From positions 62,001-126,000 of the forward strand of contig JAHBVU010000008.1 of NCBI GenBank assembly GCA_019637315.1: a stretch of DNA of 64,000 nt, read 5' to 3'. Source of the stretch: Gemmatimonadales bacterium. Lineage in GTDB: Bacteria; Gemmatimonadota; Gemmatimonadetes; Gemmatimonadales; GWC2-71-9. The translations under genes and the position numbers were made by a program. The notes below the pieces were generated by a model. That model was not told where the DNA came from. It worked only from the letters and a program-made list of their open reading frames with translations, and made no database searches. Of the stretch, positions 8,907 through 29,195 are shown one piece after another. Within the stretch, counting starts at the first letter, position 1. The number at the start of each line of letters is the position of its first letter.

Positions 8907-8979
8907 GGGGACGTAGCTCAGTTGGGAGAGCGCGTGAATGGCATTCACGAGGTCAGGGGTTCGATCCCCCTCGTCTCCA
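8907..8979 (+). tRNA. tRNA-Ala (GGC)
   Basis: 73 nt with a complete cloverleaf. The acceptor GGGGACG pairs with CGTCTCC and includes the G3-U70 wobble that identifies alanine tRNAs. The anticodon loop ATGGCAT gives GGC. CCA is not encoded. First of six clustered tRNA genes. Confidence 0.97.
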
Positions 8980-9067
8980 TTGACCGGGTCGGAAGCCCGT
9001 TCGGGCGGTAGTTGAACCGGTTGCTAATGGAAGCACCCGATGGTACGTTGGGTGCCCGCTGGACCGC

Positions 9068-9140
9068 GCGGGAATAGCTCAGTTGGTAGAGCACAACCTT
9101 GCCAAGGTTGGGGTCGCGGGTTCGAGTCCCGTTTCCCGCT
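9068..9140 (+). tRNA. tRNA-Gly (GCC)
   Basis: 73 nt. The acceptor GCGGGAA pairs with TTCCCGC, discriminator T. The anticodon loop within ACCTTGCCAAGGT gives GCC. CCA is not encoded. Confidence 0.97.
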
Positions 9141-9239
9141 CTGGGGTCGATGAATCGGACTGTTGGTTCACGACAAGCAGTGACACCCTGGGGGTGTCGA
9201 AACAGATAGCCGACGGGTGGTTGGGTCGGCAGTGAACGA

Positions 9240-9313
9240 CGCGGGGTGGAGCAGTCTGGTAGCTCGCCGGGCTCATAACCCGGAGGTCGTGGGTTCAAAT
9301 CCCACCCCCGCCA
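9240..9313 (+). tRNA. Initiator tRNA-fMet (CAT)
   Basis: 74 nt. The anticodon is CAT with three consecutive G-C pairs in the anticodon stem (GGG-CTCATAA-CCC), the initiator hallmark. The first acceptor pair is unpaired: C1 faces C72, where E. coli has C1-A72. CCA is not encoded. Confidence 0.95.
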
Positions 9314-9439
9314 TGGCAGTAGGATGACGGACAGTCGGACAGTCGGACGGCTGCACCTGTGACCCGGTGGTTCACGGCGCTGTCGAACCGTCAGACCGCT
9401 GTCCGTCTCGCGTGAGGGCAGGTCGTCTGCGCGAGGTAG

Positions 9440-9513
<74 letters not shown>

Positions 9514-9565
9514 CTGAAATCATAGAGGGCCCGCCGGCTGAATCGGCTCGTCCCGCAGGTAGTGA

Positions 9566-11109
<1,544 letters not shown>

Positions 11110-11112
11110 GTC

Positions 11113-11493
11113 CTAACCTACCCTCCGCCAGTCGCCCAGATCCACCACCTTTGCCCGTCGAACCGGCGGGCCGGCCGGCGCAGGGCTTGGCGGTTGTGTT
11201 GGCATCTGGCGTTCACGTTCGGCCGCCTCGAAGGCCACCAGACTCGCGCGTGGCACCCGCCATTCCCTACCTTGCAGCCGGTACGCGCCCGGCATCCGGC
11301 CCTGCTCCAGCCACCACCGCACCGTTGACGGCGACCGCTGGTAGCGTGTCGCCAGATCCGCCACAGTGAGATCGACCGGCCCAATATCCGCCGCATCACC
11401 CAATAGCGCTGCCAGCCACGCCCGCGGCACCGTAAGGACGGTGCCATCGGGCGAGGCCTCGACGAGCGCACGGACGTGCTCGCGGGCATCCAT
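11113..11493 (-). CDS. Excisionase-like HTH protein
   Basis: A 126-residue protein with a MerR/excisionase-type winged helix at about residues 42-90: LTVADLATRYQRSPSTVRWW, then a wing ending in EWRVPRASLVAF. The stop lies 3 bp before the integrase start, so both are co-transcribed. Position and fold suggest a directionality factor or a regulator of integration. The N-terminal 40 residues and the Pro-rich tail have no recognised function. Confidence 0.72.
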   Translation of the reverse strand: MDAREHVRALVEASPDGTVLTVPRAWLAALLGDAADIGPVDLTVADLATRYQRSPSTVRWWLEQGRMPGAYRLQGREWRVPRASLVAFEAAERERQMPTQPPSPAPAGPPVRRAKVVDLGDWRRVG

Positions 11494-11495
11494 CG

Positions 11496-11774
11496 TTAGG
11501 CAGCGCTGGCCAGCATGGGACGGGGAATCACCTTCTCCACCTCGCTGAGGTGATCAACGAGTTCTTCCGCCATGTCCGCGACAGTCGCCCAAAGATTGGC
11601 ATCGCGTTCGTCCTGACGGAGCACGTCCCGACTACTCCGATGTCCCCCGCCGTCGCGCCGCGTCGACGCAAGCTCAGCAGCGGTCTCGGCCAAGGCTTTG
11701 ACACGATATGCACGTTCGAGCGCCTGATCGAAGTGATTCACGGGCTTTTCTGCGTGGGACGATGTTGTACCCAT
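11496..11774 (-). CDS. Hypothetical small protein of the int operon
   Basis: A 92-residue protein, mostly helical and acidic (TVADMAEELVDHLSEVEKVI). I chose the ATG at 11774 because AAAGGAGA lies 6-7 bases before it; the frame also opens 7 codons earlier at a TTG without a good site. The stop is 2 bp before the excisionase-like gene. No family was recognised. Confidence 0.6.
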   Translation of the reverse strand: MGTTSSHAEKPVNHFDQALERAYRVKALAETAAELASTRRDGGGHRSSRDVLRQDERDANLWATVADMAEELVDHLSEVEKVIPRPMLASAA

Positions 11775-11833: not shown

Positions 11834-12202
11834 TCAGACCGTATCCCTTCCTCGGTTGCCATCCAGTCCGTGACTCAAAGATTCCATCAGCCCGCTCACC
11901 AGCATCGTACTCGCCTGTAAGTCGCGCGTGTCCACTACCGTCCCGTCGGCCTCAGCGTTCTCGACCAGCGCGCACAAGGTATCGATCCCTATCTCGAGCG
12001 CGGCTGCGCGCCGCCGAACTTGGGAAAGCAACGACGTCACTGGCATGGCGGGCTCTGCACCGGGCCGAGAGAAGCAGGCTTGCGACTGATACGCCAACGT
12101 CAAGCCAAGGGCCGCATCCTCGGGCATACCTGCCGCCTGCAACGCGGCGTGATAGGTTGCCGTGGCTGCTGCGAGTTCTTTGATCCGGTCGAAATCCGAC
12201 AC
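11834..12202 (-). CDS. Hypothetical protein, first gene of leftward operon
   Basis: A 122-residue, helix-rich protein with a GTG start placed after a strong GGGAGG site. It is the first gene downstream of the leftward promoter at 12325-12353, so the repressor at 12381 would control it. No recognised domain. Possible roles include antirepression or recombination control, but nothing in the sequence decides this. Confidence 0.6.
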   Translation of the reverse strand: MSDFDRIKELAAATATYHAALQAAGMPEDAALGLTLAYQSQACFSRPGAEPAMPVTSLLSQVRRRAAALEIGIDTLCALVENAEADGTVVDTRDLQASTMLVSGLMESLSHGLDGNRGRDTV

Positions 12203-12324: not shown

Positions 12325-12375
12325 AATATTGCCACTTCTGGCAAGATTGTCAAGTCACTTGTGGCAAGCCATATT
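12325..12375. promoter_or_regulatory. Divergent overlapping promoters with two operators
   Basis: Leftward promoter: TTGACA (12353-12348), 17 bp, AATATT (12330-12325). Rightward promoter: TTGTCA (12347-12352), 17 bp, CATATT (12370-12375). The two -35 boxes overlap. Operator O1 (12329-12344, TTGCCA-N4-TGGCAA) is a perfect 6+6 palindrome filling the leftward spacer. O2 (12352-12367) matches O1 at 12 of 16 positions and lies 23 bp away centre to centre. The rightward -10 ends 5 bp before the repressor ATG, which implies a leaderless mRNA. Confidence 0.75.
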
Positions 12376-12380
12376 GGGCC

Positions 12381-12596
12381 ATGCCAACCATGTTCCGTCT
12401 CGCTGAGCTCCTCGAATCGCGGAAGATGACTCAAGCCGAATTGGTCCGCCGCTCTGGTGTCAGTCAGCGGACGGTGTCCCGCCTGGTTGCTAACGAAACC
12501 CGACAAGTTCACCTCGACACCCTGGATGCCATAGCGACTACACTTGGCGTCGCCCCGGGCGAACTGATCGCCCACAATCGACCTCGGCAGCGGTAG
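12381..12596 (+). CDS. Cro/CI-type (XRE) repressor
   Basis: A 71-residue protein made of one XRE helix-turn-helix domain: RLAELLESRKMTQAELVRRS, then GVSQRTVSRL, then LDTLDAIATTLGVAPGELI. It has no C-terminal oligomerisation or cleavage domain, so RecA-type induction is unlikely. I chose the ATG at 12381, which sits where a transcript from the rightward promoter should begin; no ribosome site precedes it. An open extension to 12303 crosses the operators and is rejected. It likely binds O1 and O2. Confidence 0.85.
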   Translation: MPTMFRLAELLESRKMTQAELVRRSGVSQRTVSRLVANETRQVHLDTLDAIATTLGVAPGELIAHNRPRQR

Positions 12597-12641: not shown

Positions 12642-12941
12642 GTGCGCCCAGTCCTGACCGGTCACCGCCGAATCGTCGCCCGCCGAATGTGGGGGCAGAA
12701 TGTTCCAACGCGTGAAATCGCCTGGTGGCTCAACGTGAGCGTCCGCGTGATTCAGAAATGGGCCATGCGATGGAACTGGCCGCGGCGGCGAAAAGCACCC
12801 GAGCCCGCCCGCCGCAGCGAAGCGTTCACCCGGGCTGTGATGGTCACGCGCCGGTGCCATCGGTGCTTGACGCCGAGATCGATCCTTCTCGACGACACCA
12901 ACACCGATTGCCCACAATGTGGTGCGCCGTTTTTGCGCTGA
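12642..12941 (+). CDS. Small HTH plus zinc-ribbon protein
   Basis: A 99-residue protein from GTG. Residues 20-50 contain a helix-turn-helix of transposase/terminase-small type (PTREIAWWLNVSVRVIQKWA). The C-terminus has a zinc ribbon with two CxxC knuckles (CHRC, CPQC) about 20 residues apart. Combined DNA- and metal-binding suggests a phage-type regulator. It lies 45 bp after the repressor gene on the same strand. The start is uncertain because no ribosome site is evident. Confidence 0.65.
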   Translation: MRPVLTGHRRIVARRMWGQNVPTREIAWWLNVSVRVIQKWAMRWNWPRRRKAPEPARRSEAFTRAVMVTRRCHRCLTPRSILLDDTNTDCPQCGAPFLR

Positions 12942-13838: not shown

Positions 13839-14528
13839 CTAGCCAGCGCCCTGGAGGTGGCGCTTCATTGCAAGCCATTCAAGTGGCGGTTCGGTGGTTG
13901 CGGCCGCCTCCGCTTGCGCGATTGTTTCCAACTCGGAATCGGGCCTACCGTCCCGCCTCGCGTTGTCGGGTGCTAATCCGCTCCCGCTTGCTGGGGAAGA
14001 TCGCCTATAGGTTGAAGCGGGAATAGCATTTACAATGCTGGTGGTAAGCGGGACCCCACCCCCCTGCCCCCCCTCCCCGCGGGCGGAGCTCGCGCTGTGA
14101 TCCCGCTCGATCGGGCGGGACGTGTCCCGCTCGGTGAGCCGGGACGTATCCCGCTCGTCGGGGCGGGATGATTCGCGATATCCGCAGCTAATCAGGTGCG
14201 CATCGAGCCGAGCCGCGGCAGCGGATACCGCCGCGTCGGTGGGTCGGTCGCTGCCCGGTCGGAGGTCAGGCGGGACGGTTGCGTACCACGTTGACCGCAT
14301 TCGCGACCCCTCACGAATCAGAAGGCCCGCCCGGACCAGAGCGGTGCGGCTCCTCTCCACCGTCTCCGGCGATAGCCCGACGCGTGACGCCAGCGTGGAC
14401 GCCGTCGCAAAGCACCCCCGCCCAGTGTCGAGCTGTCGGTGCTCGTGCCAGATGCCCTTCGTCGGCCACGTCAGGACGAGTGAGCCGGTCACTACTCTGC
14501 TCCAGGCATACGGGACACTCGGAGGCAT
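13839..14528 (-). CDS. Winged-helix protein, replication-initiator-like
   Basis: A 229-residue protein. The N-terminal 85 residues hold a winged helix of the kind in DnaD/RepA-like plasmid and phage proteins (ATASTLASRVGLSPETVERS, then RTALVRAGLLIREG). A low-complexity linker follows with three ERDTSR-like repeats (about residues 123-142), coded by near-identical units of about 21-24 bp, then a Gly run. The C-terminus is disordered. Its place right after an excisionase-like gene fits a replication or copy-control role; that is an inference. Confidence 0.6.
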   Translation of the reverse strand: MPPSVPYAWSRVVTGSLVLTWPTKGIWHEHRQLDTGRGCFATASTLASRVGLSPETVERSRTALVRAGLLIREGSRMRSTWYATVPPDLRPGSDRPTDAAVSAAAARLDAHLISCGYRESSRPDERDTSRLTERDTSRPIERDHSASSARGEGGQGGGVPLTTSIVNAIPASTYRRSSPASGSGLAPDNARRDGRPDSELETIAQAEAAATTEPPLEWLAMKRHLQGAG

Positions 14529-15030: not shown

Positions 15031-18000
15031 CTAAAGCGTTCGCCGCTCGCCCGTCGCGAGCATCGCATCGTCGACGGCCTGCTGGAGAGCGACATCAGGA
15101 TCCGGCATGCTGATCCGCCCGGTGTTCCGGTCGATGCGGTGGAGCACGGCCAGCTGCTCGCGGGACACAGCCAGGTGCTGGTTGGCAATGCCGACCATCG
15201 ACCCCATGAGGCCGGCAATCCGGTTGCTCGTCGCTTCGGTCGTAACGACGGAGGCACTGACCGAGGTCTGGCTCGCGCCGAAGGTTGGCGACGTGACGCT
15301 GAAGTTCGACGCCATGGCCTTGTCGAACTCCTCCTGCTGCCGTCGACGCCGCTCCTCGTCACGCTGGGCACGCTCTTGGCCATGAACCCGCCGAAGGTCG
15401 TCCAGCTGATCTGAGGATCGACCGGCCGCCATCGCGTCGCTGATCTGCTTCGCGTGCGTCGCCAGCAAGGCCAAGTCATCGGCGGCTTCATCGAAGCCGA
15501 GTGAGCGGAGATTCCGCTGCTGCAGACTCTCCAGCCAGTCCGCTTCTTCGCGGCGGCGCTTGATCTCCTCCTCCAGTGCATCGGCGGCCCGCTCGAGCGC
15601 GGCAGCCTGGTCGTCCAGGCTCTGGATATAGGCGAGCTGCGCCAGCTGGGCTTCGGTATACCCTTCGGCAATGGCGGCGCTGATCTGCCGTTCCTTCTCA
15701 AGGTCGCGGGCCAGGCGATCGGCACGCGCCTGCCGCTGCGCCGCGTCCTCGCTGCCGATGAGGCGGTCGATATCGGCCTCCGCCTGGGCCTGCATCTGCT
15801 CCAGGTTGCCCGTGATCCGTTCGGCAGCTTGCCGCGCTACGTCAGCATTCTCCTGGAACGCCTGCGTCAGCGCGGCAATCGCATCGGACGCCTCCCCCTC
15901 GACCAACCGGAGCCACGCCAGGAACTGCTCTTCGTTGATGATCCCGGAGGTGAACAGGTCGGTGAGCCGGGACTTCTCCTGCTCCCAGCCAAGATTGACC
16001 CCCGCGACATCGGCGCCCAGTCCGTTGCCCTGACGCCGCAGGCTGCGCACCGTGAAGTCACCGGACACATCGCGCTGCTGGCGCTCGGTCTCGAGGAGTT
16101 CGCGGGCCGCTTCGGCGGCCTGTTCGGCGGCAATCCGCTGCTCATTGAGCGCGTAGACGTGCTCGACCAGCGCCTTGCTGGCCTCGTCGAAGTACTCGCC
16201 CATCTCCTGGGCGAGATCGGCGACCCGGCGCTGATGATTGAGCCGACGCTCTTCGGCATCCGCTGCCTCATTCTGGCCGAACGCCCGGAGCCGCTCGACT
16301 TCCAAATCCTCCCGCATGAGGCCCTGCTGGACCGCGAACTGTTCCCGCATCGCGGCGGTATTGGCCTGCATCTGTTGCCGAAGATCGAGCGTGGCTTGGG
16401 CCGCTTGGCCCTCGGCGATCGCCATGTCCCGGAGCTTCCGGGGCATGTCGTTGTTCTTCGCCATCCGCTCGCCCCACTCCACGACGTTCTTAAGCCAGGC
16501 GTCGGACGCGGTCGCAAACTGATTGCCCGTATACGCGACGCCCTTCAGCCCCGCCGTCTCGGCCCGGTCGTTCAACCCCTGAGCCAGGGTGTCGAGCATG
16601 CCCAAGAACTGCTCTTCGAGATCCTTGAGCGACTGCCCCACGCCGGTCCTTGGTGACGCAATCGCGGCAAAGTCACTCATCGAGCGGTCCCAGTTCGCGA
16701 CGAACTGCTCCCACTGGGCCTCCGCTGCCCGTGCGCGGGCCGCGGATGCACCGATCATGTCCACGATGCTGACGATCGTCTGGCCGACAGCGAGCGCGAC
16801 GTTCACTTGCGCGGCCGCCACCTCGAGGCCGGACGCCATAGGGTTGCCCTTGGCGTCACGCTGCTTCGAGAGCGCAGTCGTCTCCTGCAGATTCCCCACC
16901 GCGCCCACCATGTTTGGCAGCGTCCGGAGGATCCCGCCGATCTCGCTGCCAAACAAGCGGGACGCTGCCGCGAGATCGAGCATGAAGTCCGCCGCTGACG
17001 CCAGGTTATCGGCCAACTGCCGGGCATGGTCGATCCGTTCAAGCTGGAGCGCCAACTCGCGAGCGGCATCGACGTCGCTCCGCCTGATCCCCGCCGCGTT
17101 GCTCGCTCCCCTGGCCGCCGCCTCCTGACGCTGCTCAGGCGTCTGGCCCAGCGGCTCCAGGATGAACCGGCGCCGGTTCGCTTCGTCGCGCTGACGCTGC
17201 CAGTCATTGACCTGCCGCTCCCCCTCAGACGCGATGCCGAACCCGATGGTAAACGGCGTGATCTTGCTCGCGGCGGCGGCAATGCCCTCGATGAGATCCT
17301 TCTGCCGACCCAAGATCACGGCGATCTCCAGCGCCTGCCGGTACCGGTCTTTCTCAGCAGCCGACAGCTTGTCGAGCGACCGGAGCTGCGACTCGAGGTC
17401 AGCGCGCCGGTCGGCATCCGCTGCGGCTTCCTGACGAATCCGATTCCCGGACAGGCCGGCTCGGGTTGCTTCGTTCTCTCGCTCCAGCTTCCCGATCTGC
17501 TCCACCTGCTGACGCCGCTCGTTCGCGGCCTGGGTGCCCTTATCGTCGGTTTCCTTCGTGATCGTGAGCGAGCGGACGCCCAGCGCCACCAGCGCCTGCG
17601 CGGTTTCCTGCTGCTTCTGTAGCTCTTGCGTGACCTTCCGCTGCGTCAGCAGATAGGCGAGCCCGGCGCCGTCCTCAAATGCCAATCCCTCCATCTGCGC
17701 CCGGAGGTCTTTGACCCGTTTGGACGAGGCGGTTAGATCCGCGGTCATCTTCTGGATGTCGGACGTGACCGCGGCCTTGAACGACTGCTGCAGCGAGCGG
17801 AACGCATCGACCCCGGCTTTCCGGATCTTGTCGAGTTCCTCACGGCTCTTGCGACTCTCCGCGTTCATCTGGTTGTACGCGAACCCCACGGCGGCAATGC
17901 CGCCGAGGATCCCAACCATCCACGGGTTGCCCATCACGAACATGCCGAGCCCGGCCGCGAGGCGACCGACCTGGCTCTGTGCCCCCACGGTCGACAGGGC

Positions 18001-19134
18001 AAACGTCGTGAGCGGCCCCCGGAGCCCGGCGACGGTGGGACCAAACTTCTGCCCGGCGTTCGTGGCTTGGTCGAAGGCACCGGCCATCGCCCCAATCTGC
18101 GTGCTGGTGGCCGCGATTTCATTGCCCACGCCCCGCATCTGCGGGTTGCTCCGGATGGCCGTGAGGTTCTTCGAGAGTTCAGCTTGGTAGGCCTGGGCCG
18201 ACATCCGACCGGCCTCAGCGGCTTCCTGCGGCGTCAGGAGCCCAGCTTTGAGCGCCTGCTTGATCTGCGTTGCATCGGCCTGCATCTGGGCCACCAGCCC
18301 AGCCGCATGGGCACGCTGTGCCGTCCGCTGCTCGGCCAGGGCAGCTTTCGCGGCGGCGACTTCCCGGCGTCGGGCATCCGCCGCCACGGCCGCCTTGCCC
18401 TGTTCAGTCTGGCGGTAGGCTGCCGCTTCGGCTTGGATCCGCTGCCCGTACGCCTCATGCTGGGCATCGATCGCCGCGAGATCGGCCGCTCGGCGCCGCT
18501 GGGCGGCTTCCCGCGCATCGGCGAGCCGGGATTCCGCAGCCGCTTGATCCTCGGCGGCTCTCTGGGCTGCTTCGGCCTGGGCTTCCGCCGTGGCACCGGC
18601 CTCCGCCGCGGCGTCCTGCGATGCCACAAAGGCATTCGTCAGCTGCGTGACAGCGTTCGAGGCCTCGACGATCGACTGGCGGACATTGGGACTGACCTCG
18701 CGCACGCCGGGCGTATCGCCCACAGCCTTGAACGCCTCGGCCAGTTCGGTCGTGAACGCGGCGCCGATCTCGCGGGCGGCCATCTGCGCTTCGTCGGGGG
18801 TGAGCAGTCCGGCTTTCAGCGCATCCTTGAGGCCTTCACTCGCCCCCCGAACTGCATCCACGGCATTGGTCGCCACGGCGCGATAGGTCTGGGCGAGTTT
18901 CTCAACCTCCCGGACGCTGGCCGACGCGGCCTGGCGCGTGACCACTTCGGACGCCCGCATCGCCTGAGAGAGCGAGTGGACCCCTTTCTCCCCTCGTTTG
19001 GTGTTGGTATCGAGGCTGGCCCCGAGCCGTTCGGCCTGGTTCCCGAGCCGAAACATGACCTGATAGACGTCCTCGCCCCCCGCCTTGAAGGCGCGGGAAT
19101 CGATCAGGAGTTCGAGACGTCCATCGTCGCTCAT
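15031..19134 (-). CDS. Phage tail tape-measure-like protein
   Basis: A 1,367-residue protein from the ATG at 19134 (MSDDGRLEL); the frame is open 50 codons further but that part is unlike the rest. It is typical of tape-measure proteins: very long Ala/Gln/Glu-rich coiled coils, a hydrophobic middle segment (about residues 392-420, LAAGLGMFVMGNPWMVGILG), and a C-terminus with LMGSMVGIANQHLAVSREQL and HRIDRNTG. A segment of about 59 residues occurs twice (102-160 and 291-349, both with LKAGLLTPxEA). Such proteins set tail length in siphophages and myophages. No other tail gene is visible in the window. Confidence 0.85.
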   Translation of the reverse strand: MSDDGRLELLIDSRAFKAGGEDVYQVMFRLGNQAERLGASLDTNTKRGEKGVHSLSQAMRASEVVTRQAASASVREVEKLAQTYRAVATNAVDAVRGASEGLKDALKAGLLTPDEAQMAAREIGAAFTTELAEAFKAVGDTPGVREVSPNVRQSIVEASNAVTQLTNAFVASQDAAAEAGATAEAQAEAAQRAAEDQAAAESRLADAREAAQRRRAADLAAIDAQHEAYGQRIQAEAAAYRQTEQGKAAVAADARRREVAAAKAALAEQRTAQRAHAAGLVAQMQADATQIKQALKAGLLTPQEAAEAGRMSAQAYQAELSKNLTAIRSNPQMRGVGNEIAATSTQIGAMAGAFDQATNAGQKFGPTVAGLRGPLTTFALSTVGAQSQVGRLAAGLGMFVMGNPWMVGILGGIAAVGFAYNQMNAESRKSREELDKIRKAGVDAFRSLQQSFKAAVTSDIQKMTADLTASSKRVKDLRAQMEGLAFEDGAGLAYLLTQRKVTQELQKQQETAQALVALGVRSLTITKETDDKGTQAANERRQQVEQIGKLERENEATRAGLSGNRIRQEAAADADRRADLESQLRSLDKLSAAEKDRYRQALEIAVILGRQKDLIEGIAAAASKITPFTIGFGIASEGERQVNDWQRQRDEANRRRFILEPLGQTPEQRQEAAARGASNAAGIRRSDVDAARELALQLERIDHARQLADNLASAADFMLDLAAASRLFGSEIGGILRTLPNMVGAVGNLQETTALSKQRDAKGNPMASGLEVAAAQVNVALAVGQTIVSIVDMIGASAARARAAEAQWEQFVANWDRSMSDFAAIASPRTGVGQSLKDLEEQFLGMLDTLAQGLNDRAETAGLKGVAYTGNQFATASDAWLKNVVEWGERMAKNNDMPRKLRDMAIAEGQAAQATLDLRQQMQANTAAMREQFAVQQGLMREDLEVERLRAFGQNEAADAEERRLNHQRRVADLAQEMGEYFDEASKALVEHVYALNEQRIAAEQAAEAARELLETERQQRDVSGDFTVRSLRRQGNGLGADVAGVNLGWEQEKSRLTDLFTSGIINEEQFLAWLRLVEGEASDAIAALTQAFQENADVARQAAERITGNLEQMQAQAEADIDRLIGSEDAAQRQARADRLARDLEKERQISAAIAEGYTEAQLAQLAYIQSLDDQAAALERAADALEEEIKRRREEADWLESLQQRNLRSLGFDEAADDLALLATHAKQISDAMAAGRSSDQLDDLRRVHGQERAQRDEERRRRQQEEFDKAMASNFSVTSPTFGASQTSVSASVVTTEATSNRIAGLMGSMVGIANQHLAVSREQLAVLHRIDRNTGRISMPDPDVALQQAVDDAMLATGERRTL

Positions 19135-19139
19135 GCGAC

Positions 19140-19392
19140 ATTGATAAGTCGAACATGTGCGCAGGCTGCAGAGAATGGACTCAATTTCGACGGATTTGTA
19201 TCGCGGCCCGAGCAGGGCTGGTTGCAGGTCCGCCTCGGGGATAGGCAACACGCGCCAGACGACGATCAGCGAACTCGAGAACAATTGGGCAAGCGAGTCG
19301 AGCTGGACGTAATCGAGTGCCTAGCCGCAGCCCTTGGGGTCGAGCCGGGCGACCTGATCCTGCGGGAACCGAAGAAGGGGAAGAAGGGTTAA
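19140..19392 (+). pseudogene. Frameshifted XRE-type repressor remnant
   Basis: Pieces of one helix-turn-helix domain appear in two frames: EQGWLQVRLGDR, then TRQTTISELEN in another frame (about 19255-19290), then LGKRVELDVIECLAAALGVEPGDLI back in the first, ending at a TAA at 19392. This is the order expected for an XRE regulator with at least two small frameshifts. The end resembles LDTLDAIATTLGVAPGELI of the intact repressor at 12381. It lies divergent to the tape-measure gene. Confidence 0.6.
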
Positions 19393-26541: not shown

Positions 26542-26802
26542 CCGGGGGGTGCGGTTCGGGGTGGCTTGGCAGCCGATCGCCAGCCTTAGGGCGAGCCAGG
26601 CGGGGCGGATCCAGCAGAACGCGGGCCGGTGAGGACTGCCCGACTGTGGCGGCCATCAGCCTATGGGCGAGCGGCGTTTCTGCCGCAACTCCGCCGCCCC
26701 CCCAGGCATCCCTATTGGTAGCAGGGCGTACGACTAGTAGATTGGGGTGCGAAGCGCCCATGCCGTAACTAGGACCAAACCCCACCCGGTAAGGTGTGCT
26801 TG

Positions 26803-27597
26803 ATGTCTGAACAGGAGTACTCGAGTCCACCTGTACATGAAGTCGTCCTCGACCTCCTGTTCCGGGAGCGAGAAGCCGATGACAGGGTTTTCGAGCGGAT
26901 TCAGCATGCCATCGCTAGCGTTTACAATCAGGTCAGCGCCCTCGAAGAAAACCAGATCCAGGTTATCGCAACGCCGGGCGCTCCCAGCGAAGCGGCGTCC
27001 ACCACCCGAACGGTGGGCTGGATGGGCACTAATGTCGTAGGGGAGGCTCGATGGCTTCTCCGATGCCGCAGCCAGCGGTTAACCCTCAATATGGTTCGAT
27101 CTGCCTCTTGGCCCAGCGGTCCCTATGTTGGTTGGCCGGTGATTCGAGCAGAGTTCGCCAAATGCCTTGAGTTGCTTGCTGATGAATTCAAAGACTTGCC
27201 AGTACAGCGCGCAGGCCTGCGCTACCTCAATAAACTCGCGTTGCCCAGCACGGGCGCTCTTGCCACTTGGTTAAACGTCGGCATCCGTGCACCGGAGGTT
27301 CTGTCGGGGCTTTCCGTCTTCAACTGTCGCCAAGGATGGACCGAGATTCAAGGACACTCCGGACTAAGTGCCCTAGTGAATCTCGCGCGGATCAAAGTTG
27401 AGGATCCGTCCTCGCCCCCCGATGCGGTTGGCGTCCTTTTGGATATCGACGTCTATACCCGAGACCCATCTACGGCCCCCACGTACGCCCGGGTTAGCGA
27501 CTGGTTTAATCATGCTCACGCCGCCGAGCGGCTTGTTTTTGAATCGTCGATCTCGAATGAGATCAGGTCGACCCTCGGAGCAATCCAGAATGCTTGA
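26803..27597 (+). CDS. TIGR04255-like family protein
   Basis: A 264-residue protein from the ATG at 26803, with AAGGTG 7 bases before it. The N-terminal PPVHEVVLDLLFRE, the central VGWPVIRAEFAKCL and RAGLRYLNKL, and the C-terminal WFNHAHAAERLVFESSISNE match the layout of the sporadically distributed TIGR04255 family. Those proteins have no known activity and are common in islands. Its stop overlaps the next gene by 8 bp. First gene of a three-gene operon at the right end of the element. Confidence 0.72.
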   Translation: MSEQEYSSPPVHEVVLDLLFREREADDRVFERIQHAIASVYNQVSALEENQIQVIATPGAPSEAASTTRTVGWMGTNVVGEARWLLRCRSQRLTLNMVRSASWPSGPYVGWPVIRAEFAKCLELLADEFKDLPVQRAGLRYLNKLALPSTGALATWLNVGIRAPEVLSGLSVFNCRQGWTEIQGHSGLSALVNLARIKVEDPSSPPDAVGVLLDIDVYTRDPSTAPTYARVSDWFNHAHAAERLVFESSISNEIRSTLGAIQNA

Positions 27598-28582: not shown

Positions 28583-29038
28583 GAGAACCGGGTGGACACG
28601 CGAACATCCCAATCAAGGTCGCGACAAGGCGGACCCGGGATCGGGTAACGCTCCGGGTAACAATCCCTACCGTTGCTAGCCGTTTTCGGCCAACGCGGGC
28701 TAACGTAAGTCGTTGAAAATCAACGATCGTCGGTTGGTGGCTGGTGCCCATTAACGGGCTGCTGCGGTTCGCGGGCAGGGTACGTCAAAGGATTCAGGGC
28801 CTCCAGTTGGGGGGCGACATAGCCACTGGGGTCCGGAAAAATAACGCACCCCATTCCGGCAGGAAGGCGAGGCTATCCGCGTTCCGGCCACCCAGAAGGT
28901 CGAGGCTGCCGCCCAGTGTCCTTCCCAGTGACAAATGCCCCCGTTTGTAACCAACGCCAGCCAACAACCATCGGCGTAAGCTATTGAAAATCAATCATCT
29001 TCCGTTGATGGCTGGTGCCCATTGGCGGGCGGCTGCGA
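28583..29038. other. Right-end non-coding region with old element scar
   Basis: No gene seen. Two 68-bp copies of the element's right-end sequence occur at 28704-28771 and 28975-29042, 56 of 68 positions identical without gaps. Between them, 28914-28935 matches 21 of 22 bases of 9831-9852 inside the integrase gene. Together this reads as right end, decayed junction, integrase 3' fragment, right end. Confidence 0.6.
28704..28771 (+). repeat. Right-end repeat, inner copy
   Basis: 68 bp, 82 percent identical to 28975-29042. It ends in TTCG, the first bases of the att core, and then diverges from the core. Confidence 0.7.
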
Positions 29039-29042
29039 TTCG
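28975..29042 (+). repeat. Right-end repeat, outer copy at attR
   Basis: 68 bp whose last four bases are the start of the 54-bp core of attR. Contains TTGAAAATCAA, an imperfect palindrome also present in the inner copy, a possible integrase arm or host-factor site. Confidence 0.7.
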
Positions 29043-29092
29043 GGAGCAAGAGGTCCCGGGTTCAAATCCCGGCGCCCCGACTGATCATAAAG
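29039..29092 (+). repeat. attR core, 54 bp
   Basis: Identical to 9715-9768. It contains the 3' 42 bases of tRNA-Pro without the 5' half, so no tRNA is encoded here. Confidence 0.95.
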
Positions 29093-29136
29093 CGAAGCCC
29101 CATCGAACGTTACGTTCGATGGGGCTTCGTCGTTTT
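29093..29136 (+). terminator. Original chromosomal tRNA-Pro terminator
   Basis: CGAAGCCCCATCGAACG (29093-29109) pairs perfectly over 17 bp with 29113-29129 across a TTA loop, followed by TCGTTTT. Before integration it lay directly after tRNA-Pro. It matches the element-borne hairpin at 9769-9812 at 36 of 44 positions, with a compensatory C-G for T-A change. Confidence 0.85.
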
Positions 29137-29195
29137 CCGACGGGCAACATGTGGCGGGTGACGTTCCGGGCAACAGGCAGTCCGCGCCACGCGCG

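Follow-up and report, generated by a model that had tools for sequence, protein, structure and literature searches.

A compact candidate repressor switch in a tRNA-Pro island of a Gemmatimonadales genome

Described switches and the island that carries the locus

In the OR switch of phage lambda, a leaderless cI transcript is made from PRM, opposed promoters hold the operators, and the system comprises three operator sites, cro, a cI protein with a cleavable C-terminal domain, and control over lytic genes. The locus described here lies in a 64-kb stretch of Gemmatimonadales DNA (the window, analysed over its whole length) and, as judged from sequence only, shares with lambda a pair of opposed promoters with candidate repressor operators in both, as well as a repressor gene, rep, that is predicted to be leaderless. 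It differs in having two sites rather than three, in facing xis and int rather than lytic genes, and in having no cro-like gene that we could find. The C-terminal oligomerisation and cleavage domain of a lambda-type repressor is also absent from the 71-residue rep product, which consists of a DNA-binding domain only.

Parts of the same arrangement are known from several other elements. The PaaR2/YdaS region of a cryptic prophage of E. coli O157:H7 resembles the window in having a leaderless repressor, the transcript of which starts at the start codon (both predicted here), and a divergent intergenic region (of 97 bp); unlike the window, it holds two facing regulators and a toxin-antitoxin operon and does not control an integrase (PMC8630535). 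Leaderless repressor transcripts, the feature predicted for rep, are also described for cI and cro of PY54 (PMC4488713), which differs in being a telomere phage and in having cro. On pLS20, Rco acts at overlapping divergent promoters, one of which serves the regulator itself, through two operators 75 bp apart that are looped by a tetramer, and so controls conjugation (PMC4207663); the overlapping promoters and paired operators are similar to ours, whereas the 75-bp spacing, the tetramer looping and the control of conjugation are not. ImmR of ICEBs1 holds down the excisionase transcript and is inactivated by the ImmA protease (PMC6540685). The rep protein would likewise stand over an excisionase transcript, but no ImmA-type gene was recognised beside it. 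The present switch is a small, tidy variant of this known type. Gemmatimonadota are a common soil phylum whose mobile elements appear little studied; our literature search brought up no paper with these elements as its main subject.

The switch sits in a 19.3-kb island inserted in a tRNA-Pro gene (source assembly 3.9 Mb, 95% complete). A tRNA cluster at 8907-9757 ends with tRNA-Pro, and the island runs from there to 29039-29137. As in integrative islands of tRNA genes, a tyrosine integrase gene lies at one end and an att repeat derives from the tRNA 3' end. The int gene reads towards the tRNA and is preceded by xis; beyond the switch lie a replication-initiation-like gene, a tape-measure-like ORF and cargo of no assigned function. 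The features of the island outside the control region are as follows.

9598-11109, minus strand: int, tyrosine integrase (Pfam Phage_integrase, E=2e-8; PHROG integrase, 7.9e-36)
9715-9813, plus strand: attL, the 3' part of tRNA-Pro plus terminator (99-nt repeat, 92% identical to attR, first 54 identical)
11113-11493, minus strand: xis, HTH_17 excisionase-like protein (Pfam HTH_17, E=1.4e-10; PHROG excisionase matches)
11496-11774, minus strand: o99, second gene of the leftward operon (likely ATG at 11774 after AAAGGAG, the mechanical ORF start being 11795; no Pfam match)
11834-12202, minus strand: o122, first gene of the leftward operon, of no assigned function (GTG at 12202 after GGGAGG)
12381-12596, plus strand: rep, 71-aa HTH_26 (Cro/C1-type) repressor, probably leaderless (Pfam, AlphaFold2, alignment of 16 members)
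12642-12941, plus strand: 99-aa protein, possibly co-transcribed with rep (weak terminase-small-subunit-like HTH matches, PHROG E ~1e-3; paired CxxC motifs)
13839-14528, minus strand: replication-initiation O-like protein (HTH_36; Pfam, PHROG)
15031-19284, minus strand: long ORF of 1417 aa, tape-measure-like by eye (no Pfam or PHROG match)
29039-29137, plus strand: attR, repeat of the 3' part of tRNA-Pro plus terminator

Searches for DNA relatives of the island among phages returned none beyond tRNA-Pro. The tape-measure-like ORF stands without recognisable tail or head neighbours and has one weak relative in 100 genomes. The cargo includes a TIGR04255 family protein (26794-27597; NCBIfam E=2.5e-26) beside several proteins of no assigned family, and a PADLOC scan of it found nothing. 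The int ORF does not stop at the att core and terminator but runs on into the genes for tRNA-Pro and tRNA-Arg, and its C-terminal tail would therefore change upon excision. At the right end, within 28704-29048, the region preceding attR occurs a second time in degenerate form (28704-28777 against 28975-29048, 81%), together with a piece resembling the 3' end of the integrase gene (28906-28935 against 9823-9852, 87%); these copies suggest that a related element had inserted earlier at this tRNA-Pro and left traces.

The control region and its repressor

The control region spans 51 bases (12325-12375) between o122 and rep. It contains two opposed sigma-70-like promoters, each with a 17-bp spacer, that have five -35 bases in common, and two candidate operators.

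12325-12353, minus strand: leftward promoter, TTGACA (12353-12348), 17 bp, AATATT (12330-12325); top promoter-like score in the island
12329-12344, no strand: O1, TTGCCACTTCTGGCAA, candidate site in the leftward spacer plus two bases of the leftward -10
12347-12375, plus strand: rightward promoter, TTGTCA (12347-12352), 17 bp, CATATT (12370-12375)
12352-12367, no strand: O2, AAGTCACTTGTGGCAA, candidate site in the rightward spacer, 12/16 identical to O1

The rightward -10 ends five bases ahead of the rep ATG (12381-12383). A single promoter-like match is at chance level in this island and meaningless alone: 19.5 kb hold four such matches, two of them the promoters described here, where 4.1 are expected. 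The pair is another matter, as divergent promoters sharing at least four -35 bases were seen in none of 5000 dinucleotide shuffles of the intergenic region and in none of 1050 real 181-bp tiles of the window. The sequence-only reading that had proposed these opposed promoters placed them correctly.

O1 (TTGCCA-cttc-TGGCAA) is a gapped palindrome with perfect 6-bp arms, as had been proposed for the leftward spacer, and is the sole exact TTGCCANNNNTGGCAA in the window. The same reading had put a second site over the -35 boxes. A palindrome across those boxes has weaker support than a direct copy of O1, and we accordingly place O2 at 12352-12367, where it occupies most of the rightward spacer and reaches into the rightward -35 only at the final base of that box. 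The two sites are 23 bp apart, centre to centre, and the 13-bp core of O2 is 92% identical to that of O1. Among the shuffles, 0.04% contain a 6-4-6 palindrome that is accompanied, no more than 40 bp away, by another copy matching it at 12/16 or better, and 5 of the 1050 tiles do so; these shuffle and tile statistics, for promoters and palindrome alike, were shaped after the site had been seen, and the relatives described below provide the independent test. The operators are unique in the window, and a search for further ones elsewhere in the island gave nothing above chance, so that control of the replication or tape-measure-like genes by the repressor via sites of this type is improbable.

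The leftward promoter faces o122-o99-xis-int and should therefore control excision and integration. Gaps along these genes are about 60 nt or less, and the terminator-like sites listed for that strand include none from o122 to int, although a weak one overlaps the o122 ribosome-binding site. The earlier, lysogeny-like interpretation changes in this respect: what rep would control is the promoter of the island's xis-int operon and not one of early lytic genes. No match to o122 was found in Pfam, PHROG or NCBIfam, and neither it nor o99 has an HTH match (Pfam, PHROG), leaving no candidate for a second, opposing repressor of the cro type.

The rep ORF has 71 codons (ATG at 12381, stop at 12594-12596) and matches Pfam HTH_26 (PF13443) with E=2.9e-16 and 59.9 bits, against a curated cut-off of 22. 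Its AlphaFold2 model (mean pLDDT 84.8) has five helices in a lambda-repressor-like fold, with the recognition helix at residues 29-36. Neither Pfam nor the predicted fold offers a sensor, protease-target or oligomerisation domain, in agreement with the earlier description of a repressor that lacks an inducer domain. The nearest solved fold and the nearest PDB sequence are both the DNA-binding domain of SaPI2 Stl (8qe9, 8q86, 8rc5), over 62-64 residues; Stl chains have about 220 residues, and rep corresponds to the DNA-binding part only. Other near folds are small free-standing regulators (3omt, CylR2, C.AhdI and 434 Cro). Scans with rep as the sole query gave one distant match in a viral collection and one in a genome collection.

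Relatives of rep in other genomes

Of 100 related genomes, 14 hold relatives of rep (E<=1e-6), as do 15 of 394 genomes drawn from the phylum (E<=1e-8); both counts omit the window's own genome. Upstream regions were read at 17 loci, namely the window and 16 relatives. At 11 of the 17 the last base of a -10-like hexamer falls 4-8 nt ahead of the start codon, as compared with 1.3 loci expected from shuffles and 1 of 60 background genes; at the remaining 6 the box is missing from the leaderless place. In G075, G277 and G096 the position of the -10 box had guided the choice of start codon, and 8 of 14 is therefore the fair count. This shared spacing fits the proposal that the repressor is leaderless, and the comparison lends good support to such a predicted start for rep. 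A longer, TTG-started form of rep (97 aa, from 12303) would cross the promoters and finds no support in the alignment.

Repeated 14-mers upstream of the relatives exceed shuffles overall (Fisher p=8e-8, window excluded); 6 of the 16 relatives lack one at p<0.05, and the strong signal of G060a comes from a simple repeat. In three relatives (G005, G096 and G201) the two-site geometry is as in the window: the sites are 23-26 bp apart (23 in the window, 24-26 in the three relatives) and are centred about 43-49 and 18-25 nt ahead of the start codon. The better palindrome is O1 in the window and O2 in these three, and the set point may differ for that reason. We do not claim a lambda-like filling order, given this variation, nor lambda-like positive autoregulation from O1, the centre of which (about 45 nt before the start) is unlike lambda's in position and the site order of which is reversed in the relatives.

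The sequence TCACTTGTG, found inside O2, is present in two copies, spaced 38-39 bp, in the upstream regions of the rep relatives in G297 and G065. Relatives with a helix 3 of the type R[QA][AG]T[IV]S have at least two ATACG half-sites in 4 of 4 cases, versus 2 of 13 for the others (p=0.006, post hoc). Such a pairing with the helix-3 type would follow if the half-sites were bound by the protein encoded beside them.

In G005, G084 and G346 the first gene on the divergent side encodes an integrase and starts 111, 156 and 96 bp from rep, respectively; in G244 and G068 an integrase gene lies within 0.6 kb of the rep relative. The relatives in G041 and G060a are seemingly beside ordinary genes. Almost no relatives of o122, the 99-aa protein, the tape-measure-like part or the O-like protein were found in 60-100 genomes, and the gene content around the switch is therefore not conserved. 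The closest relative within the same genus, that of G005 (L046 5963-6466), has an apparent second HTH stretch behind the first in one ORF.

In Gemmatirosa kalamazoonensis (G096), the rep relative is carried on a 14,997-bp element, both ends of which are present in the chromosome with a 15-bp repeat, TGCTGATGGATCGTC. A separate contig of 20,952 bp (L056, L057; G096:C1) is a permuted, partly doubled copy of the same element in which the end is joined to the start; this junction, seen for the Gemmatirosa relative only, would mean that the element was either excised as a circle or copied in tandem. The long ORF of the Gemmatirosa element does not match the tape-measure-like ORF of the window.

Proposed mechanism and alternative readings

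The locus is most likely a real, minimal, leaderless and autoregulated switch, as its earlier description as a compact repressor switch had anticipated. We think it likely that it serves as the control switch of the island, with the repressor acting on O1 and O2 at mutually exclusive promoters to set xis-int expression; a 71-residue protein and a 51-base region would then probably decide whether the island stays in the chromosome or leaves it. The positions of the elements, taken together with PaaR2, PY54, pLS20 Rco and ICEBs1 ImmR, suggest where binding, autorepression, transcription starts and excision would come in. In the quiet state, rep would be translated from a transcript that starts at its AUG or at most two bases from it, and a rep dimer on O1 would keep RNA polymerase off the leftward promoter of o122-o99-xis-int. 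O2 lies in the spacer of rep's own promoter, where surplus rep would shut off its own synthesis. Since the -35 boxes overlap, polymerase could not occupy both promoters at once, and the choice would be sharpened. Once rep fell below a threshold, Xis and Int would be made and the island could leave the chromosome. Relief might come equally from a helper phage, from the element's own Xis or from chance loss of a scarce repressor. The idea of a helper phage is reasonable because the closest fold to rep is that of SaPI2 Stl, of which only the DNA-binding domain has a counterpart here.

The island could alternatively be a decayed prophage, in which the lysogeny switch survives while most structural genes are gone. 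The tape-measure-like ORF that stands with no head or tail genes around it, the second att and int remnant at the right end and a cargo that is not phage-type all accord with such a history. We nevertheless find it doubtful, as int, xis and rep are intact ORFs, int, xis and o99 are closely packed, and the same compact switch occurs on a 15-kb element and beside other integrases.

It is unlikely, in our assessment, that the island is a phage satellite, with a helper-phage protein lifting rep and the island being packaged in helper particles, a reading that would add to the switch and leave its local mechanics unchanged. The similarity to Stl points this way, as do weak relatives on Streptococcus satellite phages and an island that has no recognised capsid, portal or large terminase gene yet carries a replication-initiation-like and possibly a tape-measure gene. 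The portion of Stl outside the DNA-binding domain is, however, missing from rep, and Pfam and PHROGs recognise no packaging or capsid-redirecting genes beyond weak terminase-small-subunit matches. The one terminase family looked for in the 95% complete host assembly (PF03354) is absent, so there is no obvious resident helper.

It seems very improbable that rep is an autoregulator of antitoxin type whose toxin would be the 99-aa protein encoded downstream: low-score HipB and HigA family matches and a structural likeness to the putative antitoxin 3omt are offset by NCBIfam scores that all fall far under cut-off, by the resemblance of the 99-aa protein to DNA-binding rather than toxin families, and by its absence beside rep relatives, where a divergent integrase recurs instead. 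A chance association of promoter-like and palindromic sequence with an HTH gene, to which the chance-level frequency of the individual promoter matches might point, is scarcely credible for a joint arrangement that is absent from shuffles and other tiles and recurs in relatives.

If rep is indeed the control switch of this island, it makes a useful minimal case, consisting of a single 71-aa protein and some 50 bp of DNA, for asking how a sensorless repressor is ever released. We tentatively suggest, as a possibility somewhat short of an even chance, that sensorless switches of this type form a family across Gemmatimonadota mobile elements. Integrase expression would be set directly in each by nothing more than a leaderless DNA-binding domain together with two operators and overlapping promoters, and operators would diverge along with the recognition helix such that related islands do not cross-repress. 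Related islands with differing operators and recognition helices form a ready panel for specificity tests. One rep relative, in G075 (L047 7180-10695), has a tRNA-Pro/Arg/Val/Gly/Ala cluster, the same one as the window, at a distance of about 2 kb.
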